This document shows positions 1-64,000 of a stretch of 64,000 nucleotides of DNA, in pieces. The stretch lies in assembly GCA_001599355.1 (NCBI GenBank), contig BCGQ01000002.1, forward strand, positions 1,191,554-1,255,553, in the 5' to 3' direction. Made by a program: the position numbers and the translations under genes. Positions within the stretch are counted from its first letter, which is position 1. Each line of letters starts with the position of its first letter. The DNA comes from Nakazawaea peltata (lineage: Eukaryota; Ascomycota; Pichiomycetes; Alaninales; Pachysolenaceae). A model generated the notes under the pieces. The model saw only the letters and a list, made by a program, of their open reading frames with translations, ran no database searches and was not told the DNA's origin.

Positions 1-1103
1 TATTATGTCTCTCTCTCGACCTTGGAGTATCGTCTGAACCTGTGTTCCAGCCAATTTTCCATTTCCAAGCCCATCTGTTAAGTGTCCGTTGCTTAGATGC
101 CGCCAAAAGGTACCTTGTCAGTGGTTCCAACGATGAACATATCAAGATTTATGACTTACAAAAACGTAAAGAATTGGGAGATTTACTTCTGCATCAAGGT
201 TCGATCACCGTGCTCAAGTTTGCCCCAAGTTCAGCCCCAAAATGGCTCTTAAGTGGCTCAGAAGATGGTAATATCATCATTTGGAGAATCAAAGACTGGG
301 AAATGTTCGGTACAATGAAGGGCCACAAGGCCAGAATCAATGATATTGACGTTCATCCGACCGGTAAGATCCTGTTATCATGTGGAGACGACCGTACTGT
401 CATTCTTTGGAATTTAATGACCCTGAAAAAACTGTCTATTTTGAAATTACGTGGTAAAGACACCCTCGGAGCAAAACCACAACAGGTCCATTGGTCCTTA
501 GATGATGCTGAATACTTCGTAGTGCTGTTCAGTGATAAGATTTTCGTATATAGTAGCTCTAACTCGAAAATTGTAGCCATCTGGAAATTCAGATCCCCAT
601 TAATGAAGATGGGAATCGTCAGATTACTGGGTGTTCAGATGTTGGTCTCTGCCCATGGAAATGGACAAGTCAATTTGTATAAATTTGATACTTTAGTAAC
701 CGGGTCGAAGCCAAATATCGCAGAGGCTTCTTCTTTAGACTCTCTTACCCCAGAATGGTCACTTCAAGGTCATGCCACAAGAGTTAAAGATTTCAAATTC
801 TACGGTAACGATTATTTAGTTACTATTAGTTCAGATGGTAAAATTGTAGTGTGGGATTTACTGGCTCGTGATCAAGTTGCCGTTTATTCCACTGGTGACA
901 GATTGACCTGTGTCACTTGTTGTCCTGAAGACGTTGAAAAATATGTAGCCTCTAAAGATCTGGCTTCCAGATTACTGGACGAAGATTATAGTGAATATGA
1001 GACTGATAATGAGGAGGAGTTGAAGGAGTTGATTAAGAAGCAACAAGAGAAGCCAAAGAAGAAGAAGAAGAAGGGGAAGAGGGTTAGTGTTGAAATGGAG
1101 TGA
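1..1103 (+). CDS. MAK11: Mak11/PAK1IP1-type WD40 ribosome-biogenesis protein, 5' truncated by window edge
   Basis: This is a WD40 propeller protein of the Mak11 (human PAK1IP1) family, a nucleolar factor needed for 60S ribosomal subunit assembly. The reading frame is open from base 3, before any ATG, and the residues encoded there (LCLSLDL, then FQPIFHFQAH) match the family's first propeller blade, so the gene starts left of the window; a GTG at 42 is not the start. About 366 codons are visible. WD-type blades follow one another (LVSGSNDEHIKIYD, LLSGSEDGNIIIW, LLSCGDDRTVILWN, LVTISSDGKIVVWD). The tail is acidic (SEYETDNEEE) and then lysine-rich, as is typical of nucleolar proteins. The identity is by recall of the yeast protein and is strong in the N-terminal half. 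Confidence 0.9.
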   Translation, partial: LCLSLDLGVSSEPVFQPIFHFQAHLLSVRCLDAAKRYLVSGSNDEHIKIYDLQKRKELGDLLLHQGSITVLKFAPSSAPKWLLSGSEDGNIIIWRIKDWEMFGTMKGHKARINDIDVHPTGKILLSCGDDRTVILWNLMTLKKLSILKLRGKDTLGAKPQQVHWSLDDAEYFVVLFSDKIFVYSSSNSKIVAIWKFRSPLMKMGIVRLLGVQMLVSAHGNGQVNLYKFDTLVTGSKPNIAEASSLDSLTPEWSLQGHATRVKDFKFYGNDYLVTISSDGKIVVWDLLARDQVAVYSTGDRLTCVTCCPEDVEKYVASKDLASRLLDEDYSEYETDNEEELKELIKKQQEKPKKKKKKGKRVSVEME

Positions 1104-1383
1104 TATAGAGCATTTTAATAAAAAGCATAGATTAATAGGTGTAGAATTGGGGGTAATTTTGTGAAATTGGGGGTAATTTTAATTAATTAGACCGGTTCAG
1201 CAGTGATAATGTAGATATGATGGGTAAATTGTGGTTAGACAGTTGTTATACAGTAACCAGAAGATGTCTAGACAATGACTAGCCTATCCAGAAACTACTT
1301 CACTACATCAAATCCCCTCTAATCCCCACTACATATCAGCATTTTATAACTTATCCAACTCTTATTATTATATAATATATAAA
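1104..1383. other. Convergent 3' intergenic spacer with G-rich short repeat
   Basis: This 280-bp spacer lies between the convergent ends of MAK11 and LYS1. It carries two copies of an AATTGGGGGTAATTTT unit (about 1145-1184) and is otherwise AT-rich 3'-end sequence. No gene is seen. Confidence 0.6.
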
Positions 1384-2499
1384 TTATAATTTAGACTTGT
1401 TCAATCTAGCAACATGCTTCTCGTATAACAGTTTCAGCTTAGCCCATACAGGCAGTTGATCACGGTTTGGCAATTGTAACAAAGATGGCATCAAATCATT
1501 AGCAAAGAACTCAGAAGCCTCTCTTGGTAACAAAGATGGCAAGTGATCAATACTGATAACAGACAAAGATGGACCTTGTAAACCTACTACTGGAACAGTT
1601 GGTTCTGGGAAAGTAGTGGCAACAGTGTAAACTGGAACTGGGTTATATGGGTTGGTAGTATCCAGAGAAACATCGACGATGGTACGCAAGTTTCTTTCTG
1701 GGTCATTCAACAAAGACTTGTTAATGAATGGAGCAATTGGCTTAGACAAATAAATACAGTTGATAAAGATATCCAGCTTGACAATCTCCTCGAATGGACC
1801 ACCACGAGCAGTCTCCTTCATATCCCATTTCAAGATATTGGCATCTGGAATACCACACTTCTTCAATAAAGTAGTGGCACCGGTACCACAACGACCCAAA
1901 GCACCAATAACAAGTACGGTTGGCTTCTTGTCGGTGATTTTCAGGACCTTGGCCAAGTCAGCCTTGACATCCTTGATCAAAGCAGTCTCGTTAGGGTATG
2001 GAGAAACACCTGGCAAGTCTTCATCTGGGTTGATTTGCTTGTGCAGCCAATCCTTCAAACCCAAAGCAGCACCGGCAAATCCAGCATAGAATCCAAACAG
2101 AGCAACTCTTCTTCCCTTGTCATCCTCCAAGAATTCCAAATCGTAAAGAACACCATTTCCAGCTGGGTAACGGGATAAAACCTTCTCCCATCCATCTTGG
2201 TTCTTGTAACAGTGGGCAAATTGGATGTGTTCATGGATCAATGGGAAGGTGTCCTCTTCAGGCATCTCCTTCAATCCAATGATAACACGGTCACGTGGAG
2301 CACTGACCCACGATCCAGCTGGAACAATCTTAGCTCCAACCTTCTTATACTCATCGATAGAGAAGGTCGATTGAGATGACTCCTCGACGTAAATCTCAAA
2401 TTGGCCAGTTCTCAATAACTTGGCAACAGTAGATGGGGTCAAAGCGGCTCTGGCTTCCAAAGGCTTGGTCTCAGCTCTCAAATGTAATGTGGTGACCAT
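1384..2499 (-). CDS. LYS1: Saccharopine dehydrogenase (NAD+, L-lysine-forming)
   Basis: This enzyme catalyses the last step of fungal alpha-aminoadipate lysine synthesis: saccharopine + NAD+ gives L-lysine + 2-oxoglutarate + NADH. The protein has 371 residues, against about 373 in S. cerevisiae. The residues corresponding to the catalytic pair of the yeast enzyme are at the same numbers: K77 in IGLKEMP and H96 in QFAHCYKN. The nucleotide-binding loop [10 protein letters not shown] lies at about 199-208. The protein ends in Ser-Lys-Leu, a canonical type 1 peroxisomal targeting signal, so it probably resides in peroxisomes as reported for other yeasts. A Gcn4-type TGAGTCA lies 253 bp upstream of the start. 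Identity is very secure. Confidence 0.97.
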
Positions 2500-63180: not shown

Positions 63181-63320
63181 GCATGTTTCTCCTCATCTCC
63201 GCCTCTCCACATTATCTCATTATCTCATATTGCATTTCTTATAAATTAACTTAGTAAATTACTTCTCTTAAATTGATACAGTAGATACACTAGACAGTTG
63301 AACGCAGACAATATCCATTT

Positions 63321-64000
63321 CTATACATTAACTACATCTCTATAATATGGAATAGCTTCTGCTGCTCCCTTGGATTGTACTGTGAGTGAACTAGCCTTGG
63401 AAGCAAACTCCATAGCCTCATCAATCGAATTCCCAAGACTCAATTGAGAAATAATACCTCCTAAGAAAGTGTCTCCGGCTCCAGTGGTATCTACAACCTT
63501 TTCCTTTGGAATTAAATGAGATTGGAAGAATCTCGACTCTCCATGAGAATAATAAAGAGCTCCCTTGGATCCTAAAGTGATGATACAGATATTCAGATTC
63601 TTAGGACTGATGGAGTCACCTAATTTTTTGGCCAAATCGGTGAATCCAGAGACTTTATCTTGGTCGATTTTGGATTTGAATTGAGCCAATTCCACTTCCT
63701 CCAAGATATTCTTCGCACACATCAACAGCTCGGTCTCATTGACGATCAAAACGTCCAATTTGGAATATACCTCTTTAGAAAAATCCATAAATGGGGAAGG
63801 ATTATAACAGATATTAACCTTTGGACGATTTTTGGAGATCCATTCGATCGATTCCAAAGTGTTTGGAGTCTCATTTTCCAAAATCACATACTGGTGCTCA
63901 TTATCAGCAACTTCAGCGGCAAACAATTTATCATAATCCAGTTCCGTAGGATGGAGATGACCATTGGCTCCAGAATTAATCAAAATTCGATTTTCCCCAC
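63321..64000 (-). CDS. RBK1: Ribokinase (PfkB family), 5' end beyond window
   Basis: This kinase phosphorylates D-ribose to ribose 5-phosphate. About 226 C-terminal residues are visible. The frame stays open to the right edge, reading GENRILINSGANGHL before the rest, as in ribokinase, so the start lies beyond 64000 and a TTG at 63983 is not the start. The PfkB signature VVDTTGAGDTFLGGI with the catalytic Asp is present, as are NPSPFMDF, the VNETE motif and the Mg/ATP-site ITLGSKGALYY. S. cerevisiae Rbk1 has 333 residues, so about a third is missing. Confidence 0.93.
   Translation of the reverse strand, partial: GENRILINSGANGHLHPTELDYDKLFAAEVADNEHQYVILENETPNTLESIEWISKNRPKVNICYNPSPFMDFSKEVYSKLDVLIVNETELLMCAKNILEEVELAQFKSKIDQDKVSGFTDLAKKLGDSISPKNLNICIITLGSKGALYYSHGESRFFQSHLIPKEKVVDTTGAGDTFLGGIISQLSLGNSIDEAMEFASKASSLTVQSKGAAEAIPYYRDVVNV

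Follow-up and report, generated by a model that had tools for sequence, protein, structure and literature searches.

Alignments point to CUG as an alanine codon in a 64-kb window of yeast nuclear DNA

The subject of this analysis is the meaning of the CTG (CUG) codons in a 64-kb stretch of DNA, hereafter called the window, which has a G+C content of 41.8% (N included in the length) and a single gap of 355 bases. A first-pass annotation, made from the letters of the sequence, had claimed that CUG codons mean alanine here. The window carries a budding-yeast set of genes, as judged from structure-search matches to AlaRS (alanyl-tRNA synthetase), cysteine desulfurase, PDR transporters, Puf3, an Xaa-Arg dipeptidase of the M20 family, CDC16, Ktr4, Lys1, WIPI3/Hsv2 and 6-phosphogluconate dehydrogenase (Table 1). 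From 30 open reading frames (ORFs) of at least 150 codons we used 27, omitting three that overlap other genes (22013-22483, 27568-28233 and 51839-52483). The structure search covered ten of these 27 proteins, with the best one to five alignments per protein being considered, and ten were scanned against Pfam, each under the NCBI code tables 26, 1 and 12. The species of the solved-structure chains, wherever named, and the names of LEU2 and of several small ORFs are those that we take them to be.

Residues opposite the CTG codons

To keep CTG from steering the alignment, it was rendered as X in the translations of nine genes, which were then compared with relatives of solved structure; the tabulating script verified each query row against the codons of the window. 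In these alignments 222 residues face 135 distinct CTG codons, namely Ala 119 times, Ser 14, Gly 13, Glu 11, Gln 11, Lys 10, Val 9, Leu 6, Asp 6 and Ile 5 times, with the remaining amino acids being fewer. This table omits near-identical duplicate chains, two CDR1 alignments, a weak M20 match (31 bits), Pdr5 past residue 1053, one row of the CDC16 homologue (query 214-305; three CTG codons face Ala there by eye), the short second domain of that protein, and GND1, whose sole CTG (codon 70) faces Ala in chain 2p4q. The residue profile of CTG is that of the GCN codons, which face Ala in 110 of 231 cases in the same alignments. The other five Leu codons face Leu in 332 and Ala in 9 of 556 cases, and the Ser codons face Ser in 132 and Ala in 37 of 378. 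The assignment of CUG to alanine made in the first-pass annotation is borne out by this nine-gene table.

Among the individual genes, NFS1 aligned with chain 5usr at 11 CTG codons, eight of which face Ala and the rest Arg, Glu and Lys; two alanines of its HTDAAQA motif are encoded by CTG. In ten bacterial relatives, the CTG columns of NFS1 hold 68 Ala, 7 Ser and 1 Leu out of 109 letters, and columns 235, 331 and 335 account for 25 of the 41 non-Ala letters. The comparison of CDC16 with CDC16 (8a3t), Cut9 (2xpi) and the homologue 5khu gave Ala in 56 of 84 CTG-residue pairs, and that of the M20 peptidase with Xaa-Arg dipeptidase (7yh4) and HmrA (3ram) gave Ala in 22 of 43. LYS1, set against the Lys1 chain 2q99, has eight aligned CTG codons (Ala 6, Leu 1, Lys 1), HSV2 against WIPI3 (8zqg) has 12 (Ala 7, Leu 0), and SNQ2 against Pdr5 (7p03; residues 161-1053 only) has 21 (Ala 8, Leu 2). 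In ALA1, five CTG codons stand opposite residues of AlaRS 4xem (Ala 3, Cys 1, Glu 1) and a sixth lies in a gap. PUF3, aligned with Puf3 (3k49) and Pumilio homolog 2 (3gvo), contributes 29 pairs with Ala in eight and Leu in none, and KTR4 has nine CTG codons aligned with Ktr4 (7boo), one of which faces Ala and none Leu.

Columns in which at least two relatives agree were available for CDC16, M20 and PUF3. There, CTG occupies 25 of 40 all-Ala columns, with CDC16 supplying 16 of them, and one of 20 all-Ser columns. Were the standard code in use, with CUG as Leu and with alignments that mislead, CTG would have to be reconciled with its absence from all 63 all-Leu columns, in which CTT, TTG, CTC and TTA are present 11 to 13 times each.

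The 22 codons on which the first-pass annotation had relied (SNQ2 6, ALA1 2, PUF3 3, PET8 2, NFS1 2, GND1 1, CDC16 2, M20 4) are all CTG and in frame with their ORF. Its two quoted motifs likewise hold: the AlaRS chain 4xem reads MAYRVLADH where the window has T-CTG-YRVLADH, for the motif DTAYRVLADH, and the Pdr5 chain 7p03 reads CWDNATRGLD where SNQ2 has CWDN-CTG-TRGLD, for the motif WDNATRGLD. The further statement that every named CTG sits at an alanine position is overstated: among the 17 named codons that can be aligned, 13 have Ala in at least one relative and four have it in none of the tabulated relatives. The other five (SNQ2 1119, ALA1 890, PUF3 6 and both PET8 codons) fall outside the alignment table.

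Likelihoods, family scores and rival codes

For each codon, the facing residues were scored under the profile of every one of the 20 amino acids, with that codon and CTG held out. The log-odds for CTG were +227.4 bits for Ala, +13.7 for Ser, -113.5 for Cys, -123.6 for Val and -475.4 for Leu; these bits give a ranking and not a probability, because the residues are not independent. Among the control codons, GCT, GCC and GCA score as Ala, and TTG, TTA, CTT and CTC as Leu. The standard meaning was recovered for the sense codons with at least 20 aligned residues, except for a near tie at ATA (Val 25.9, Ile 24.8). ATG, TGG and TGT, together with GCG (one residue) and CGG (none), were beyond the reach of the script. 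Codons with small samples that score off their standard meaning are ACG (13 residues), AGG (12), CGA (4), CGC (7) and CTA (4), and both these scores and the near tie at ATA (20 residues) are best explained by sampling.

CTA was considered as a second reassigned codon and set aside, its four aligned residues (Met 2, Gly 1, Leu 1) being too few; it is scarce in the 27 ORFs, with 15 of 14,833 codons. Passages of codon studies describe low CUA use in the CUG-Ser clades and CUA as generally unpreferred in the subphylum.

When each gene was scored with profiles trained on the others, Ala was best in seven of nine (ALA1, NFS1, M20, CDC16, SNQ2, LYS1 and HSV2), and the Leu score was negative in all nine. 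CDC16 alone gives Ala +125, Ser +20 and Leu -200 bits, M20 alone +39, -4 and -84 bits, and SNQ2 alone +13.7, -3.4 and -34 bits, respectively. A mixture of Ala, Leu and Ser profiles fitted to the CTG columns came out as 98% Ala-like and 2% Leu-like, and two-part mixtures leave room for at most about 4% of Leu-like columns, or at most about 4% of Ser-like ones.

In the Pfam scan, the top family of each of the ten proteins scored higher with Ala than with Leu, by 0.2 to 97 bits. With the scores given in the order Ala, Ser, Leu, CDC16 matched TPR_2 at 132.7, 90.6 and 35.3 bits and ANAPC3 at 100.7, 78.4 and 72.0; NFS1 matched Aminotran_5 at 336.1, 324.1 and 312.9; the AlaRS family scored 727.1, 721.2 and 717.6, and ABC2_membrane 251.7, 249.6 and 234.5. 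The M20 family was found at 31.4 bits with Ala, gave no match with Ser, and scored 25.6 with Leu. The RTT107-like protein gave 95.1, 87.1 and 85.3 bits for PTCB-BRCT and 89.8, 90.7 and 83.0 for RTT107_BRCT_5, and NUP120 gave 76.7, 73.6 and 68.5 for TPR_NUP160_120_M and 159.1, 160.0 and 154.1 for its beta-propeller. The PH domain of the BOI-like protein (53.4, 54.0 and 45.3) disfavours Leu only, and UCH of the ubiquitin hydrolase (229.4, 230.3 and 229.2) is uninformative.

Several observations weigh against alanine, or against the strength of the case for it. The residue pairs are not independent, with CDC16 supplying 84 of the 222. PUF3 alone does not favour Ala (Gln +4.2, Ala -0.5, Leu -61 bits), nor does KTR4, which is uninformative (Ser +0.3). 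A free 20-part mixture assigns 87.5% to Ala, 5.6% to Gln, 4.0% to Glu and 1.9% to Gly; we read the Gln, Glu and Gly share as variable surface sites. Among the named codons, SNQ2 308 faces Val in Pdr5 but Ala in the CDR1 chain 9iuk, SNQ2 310 and 948 face Ile and Lys in Pdr5, and M20 206 faces Ser and Glu in the relatives. A CAG-anticodon tRNA of any identity was found by neither ARAGORN nor Rfam in the 64-kb window, whose tRNAs (ARAGORN; Rfam at the same three places) are Arg(CCT), Ser(GCT) and Cys(GCA). Finally, 12 Pfam families score 0.1 to 5.9 bits higher with Ser than with Ala: the largest lead is that of PDR_CDR (112.0 versus 106.1, or 5.9 bits), and those of ABC2_membrane_7, AAA_22, tRNA_SAD, UCH, UCH_1, the Nup120 propeller, NUP120_helical_2, RTT107_BRCT_5, LIG3_BRCT, PH and SAM_1 amount to 0.1-0.9 bits. 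Five minor, mostly overlapping families (RsgA_GTPase, AAA_21, AAA_29, SMC_N and DHHA1) favour Leu over Ala, by no more than 0.7 bits.

These last leads, together with the six Leu among 222 facing residues, are what speaks for the standard code, and they are set against a Leu log-odds of -475 bits and the empty all-Leu columns; we regard this explanation as vanishingly improbable. A serine code (table 12, of the CUG-Ser1 or the CUG-Ser2 clade), with a tRNA-Ser(CAG) reading CUG, can draw on the 12 families and on the rank of Ser as second-best reading, at +14 bits. However, Ala is about 214 bits better, Ser makes up 14 of 222 residues opposite CTG versus 132 of 378 opposite Ser codons, the single all-Ser column with CTG is one of 20, the TPR_2 match of CDC16 weakens (132.7 bits with Ala, 90.6 with Ser) and that of M20 disappears, so that this alternative is extremely improbable. 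Collectively, the Leu reading of CTG is excluded, Ser is strongly disfavoured, and Ala is clearly the best of the 20 amino acids.

Mixed decoding, with CUG read mostly as Ala and in part as Leu or Ser through competing or mischarged tRNAs, has precedents in passages of the 2018 survey (PMC5951914), which describe Ser2 yeasts with competing CAG tRNA genes and about 3% Leu mischarging in C. albicans. The mixture fits, with their limit of about 4% for Leu-like or Ser-like columns, make it very unlikely for the window, and they bound what selection sees rather than low-level mistranslation in the cell.

The code, its probable decoder and its relatives

With alanine as the meaning of CUG, the window is almost certainly budding-yeast nuclear DNA that uses NCBI table 26, the sampled rest of its code being standard. 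The likely decoder would be a tRNA-Ala whose anticodon had mutated to CAG. AlaRS recognises its tRNA independently of the anticodon, so that such a CAG tRNA would still be charged with alanine; the base pair G3:U70 is an identity element of tRNA-Ala. The ancestral tRNA-Leu(CAG) was presumably lost. CUG is now an ordinary and frequently used codon for alanine in this species, but the two genes whose codon bias is strongest hardly contain it. Standard-code translation makes the proteins of the window wrong at about one residue in 40, some of these in functional motifs, and databases, structure predictions and expression constructs for the organism therefore need table 26.

The reading of CUG as alanine was reported for Pachysolen tannophilus in 2016, as recounted in passages of the 2018 survey, which compared the sequences of 52 yeasts, applied mass spectrometry to 18 and has Nakazawaea and Peterozyma in its Ala clade (PMC5951914). 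NCBI labels table 26 'Pachysolen tannophilus nuclei', and its taxonomy places three genera (Pachysolen, Nakazawaea and Peterozyma) in Pachysolenaceae, the one family of the order Alaninales. Since it is tabulated and reported for these three genera, the CUG-Ala code is already known. From the code alone, we infer that the window probably derives from the Pachysolen/Nakazawaea/Peterozyma lineage, there being one CUG-Ala clade in the 2018 survey. A separate CUG-to-Ala change in a yeast outside Alaninales is an alternative, as this placement draws on the code and not on a tree; the single Ala clade among the 52 yeasts, as given in the survey's text (PMC5951914), makes such an independent change very unlikely.

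Membership in the CUG-Ala clade agrees with the way in which the window reads CUG as Ala and the other testable codons in the standard manner. The window differs from what is described for that clade in that CTG is frequent (24.5 per 1000 codons; 31% of Ala codons) and present at conserved sites. According to the 2018 survey, CUG is comparatively infrequent and weakly conserved in the clades that have reassigned it; a few hundred CUG codons in the whole protein set of P. tannophilus are mentioned at second hand in another text (PMC12202755), a 2021 codon paper also describes the reassigned codon as rare, with frequencies of 0.003-0.006 in a set of three GAL genes (PMC8084343), and five CUG-Ala genomes were excluded from a 2019 codon study (PMC6701816). 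Either the species is an exception to the average, or the rule of rarity misfits the Ala clade. If the second-hand figure for P. tannophilus is right, the high CUG content of the window speaks against that species and makes a Nakazawaea or a Peterozyma the more likely source. The CUG-Ser1 (Candida clade, table 12) and CUG-Ser2 (Ascoidea/Saccharomycopsis) yeasts have the same codon reassigned, but the residue in the window is Ala and not Ser. For Ascoidea rubescens, the sources conflict: CUG is alanine in a 2017 review (PMC5499181) and serine by mass spectrometry in the 2018 survey (PMC5951914).

CTG usage and other features of the window

CTG makes up 364 of the 14,833 codons of the 27 ORFs. 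Once the putative PET8 exon 2 is included, it makes up 367 of the 1,177 codons for alanine, second after GCT. Among the other alanine codons of the 27 ORFs, GCG is very rare and GCA low (23 and 112 codons, respectively), as though their share had passed to CTG. No single base change joins GCN with CUG, and the replacement of one by the other therefore takes either two substitutions, with Val (GTG) or Pro (CCG) as examples of the intermediate, or a double change in one event.

Genes of higher codon optimality have a lower CTG share among their alanine codons (Spearman -0.67, p = 1.4e-4, n = 27 genes), on an index whose 'preferred' codons were picked by the analyst after viewing the codon table. 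The extremes are GND1 (1 of 49; one CTG versus 48 GCN), LEU2 (1 of 41; one CTG versus 40 GCN, optimality index 0.87) and CDC16 (36 of 63).

When the alanine codons of the nine aligned genes are grouped by what the relatives carry, CTG accounts for 59 of 139 at sites where every aligned relative has Ala, for 19 of 34 where only part of them have it, for 57 of 146 where Ala is missing from all of them, and for 50 of 219 outside the alignments. CTG is thus not depleted at conserved alanine sites. All-Ala sites exceed unaligned ones with an odds ratio of 2.5 (Fisher p = 1.5e-4; gene-stratified 3.3, z 4.1), a contrast that is strong in NFS1, CDC16 and HSV2, absent or weak in ALA1, SNQ2 and KTR4, and drawn against unaligned parts that include alanine-rich low-complexity stretches. 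A specific enrichment of CTG at conserved Ala sites was considered and finds no support, as 59/139 is close to the 57/146 at aligned sites where the relatives lack Ala; the only clear contrast in CTG share for the conserved Ala sites is that with unaligned sequence.

It is possible, and we put it forward tentatively at a little under even chances, that the captured CUG has become a mainstream alanine codon, being the second of five, about 2.5% of codons, and as common at conserved Ala sites as at other aligned ones. If so, it would contradict the generalisation that reassigned CUG is rare and poorly conserved, and a sense codon could be fully re-naturalised. Were heavy CUG use to extend genome-wide, the species would be a good system for the recapture of a sense codon after reassignment, and for the question of whether the published rarity of a reassigned CUG holds as a rule or describes an average.

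Table 1. Genes of the window, with their positions and numbers of CTG codons
Gene	Position	Strand	CTG codons	Remark
LYS1 (saccharopine dehydrogenase)	1384..2499	minus	8	
CDC16/APC6	6557..8821	plus	36	
HSV2/WIPI3-like PROPPIN	9066..10322	plus	15	
PUF3	14270..16528	plus	32	
ALA1 (alanyl-tRNA synthetase)	17332..20259	plus	16	
KTR4/KRE2-type mannosyltransferase	21019..22437	plus	12	
RTT107-like BRCT protein	22898..25306	plus	22	
GND1 (6-phosphogluconate dehydrogenase)	27733..29166	plus	1	
M20 peptidase, Xaa-Arg dipeptidase-like	29517..30809	plus	22	
LEU2	31212..32312	minus	1	name presumed
NFS1 (cysteine desulfurase)	33694..35109	minus	12	
Putative PET8 exon 2	35682..36461	plus	5	gene name from the first-pass annotation
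BOI-like SH3-SAM-PH protein	43515..46364	minus	23	
SNQ2/PDR-type ABC transporter	48677..53188	plus	32	
NUP120	55329..58391	plus	28	
Ubiquitin hydrolase	58825..61881	minus	30	

In front of the putative PET8 exon lies an intron-like stretch (35590-35681) with GTAAGT, TACTAAC and a CAG end, the splice sites being placed by eye. The open frame extends upstream of the ATG at 35940 to the end of this stretch, and an ATG-based ORF misses the front of the gene. A minisatellite at 12863-13435 consists of the 14-base unit GGGAGTAGATAGTG, which flanks the run of 355 N (12958-13312) on both sides; because the unit repeats on both flanks, the N run probably stands for array sequence that was left unassembled. 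Between SNQ2 and NUP120, four C/D box snoRNAs (snR77, snR76, snR75 and snR73) stand in a row on the minus strand at 54060-54878, a cluster of four that is of the fungal type.

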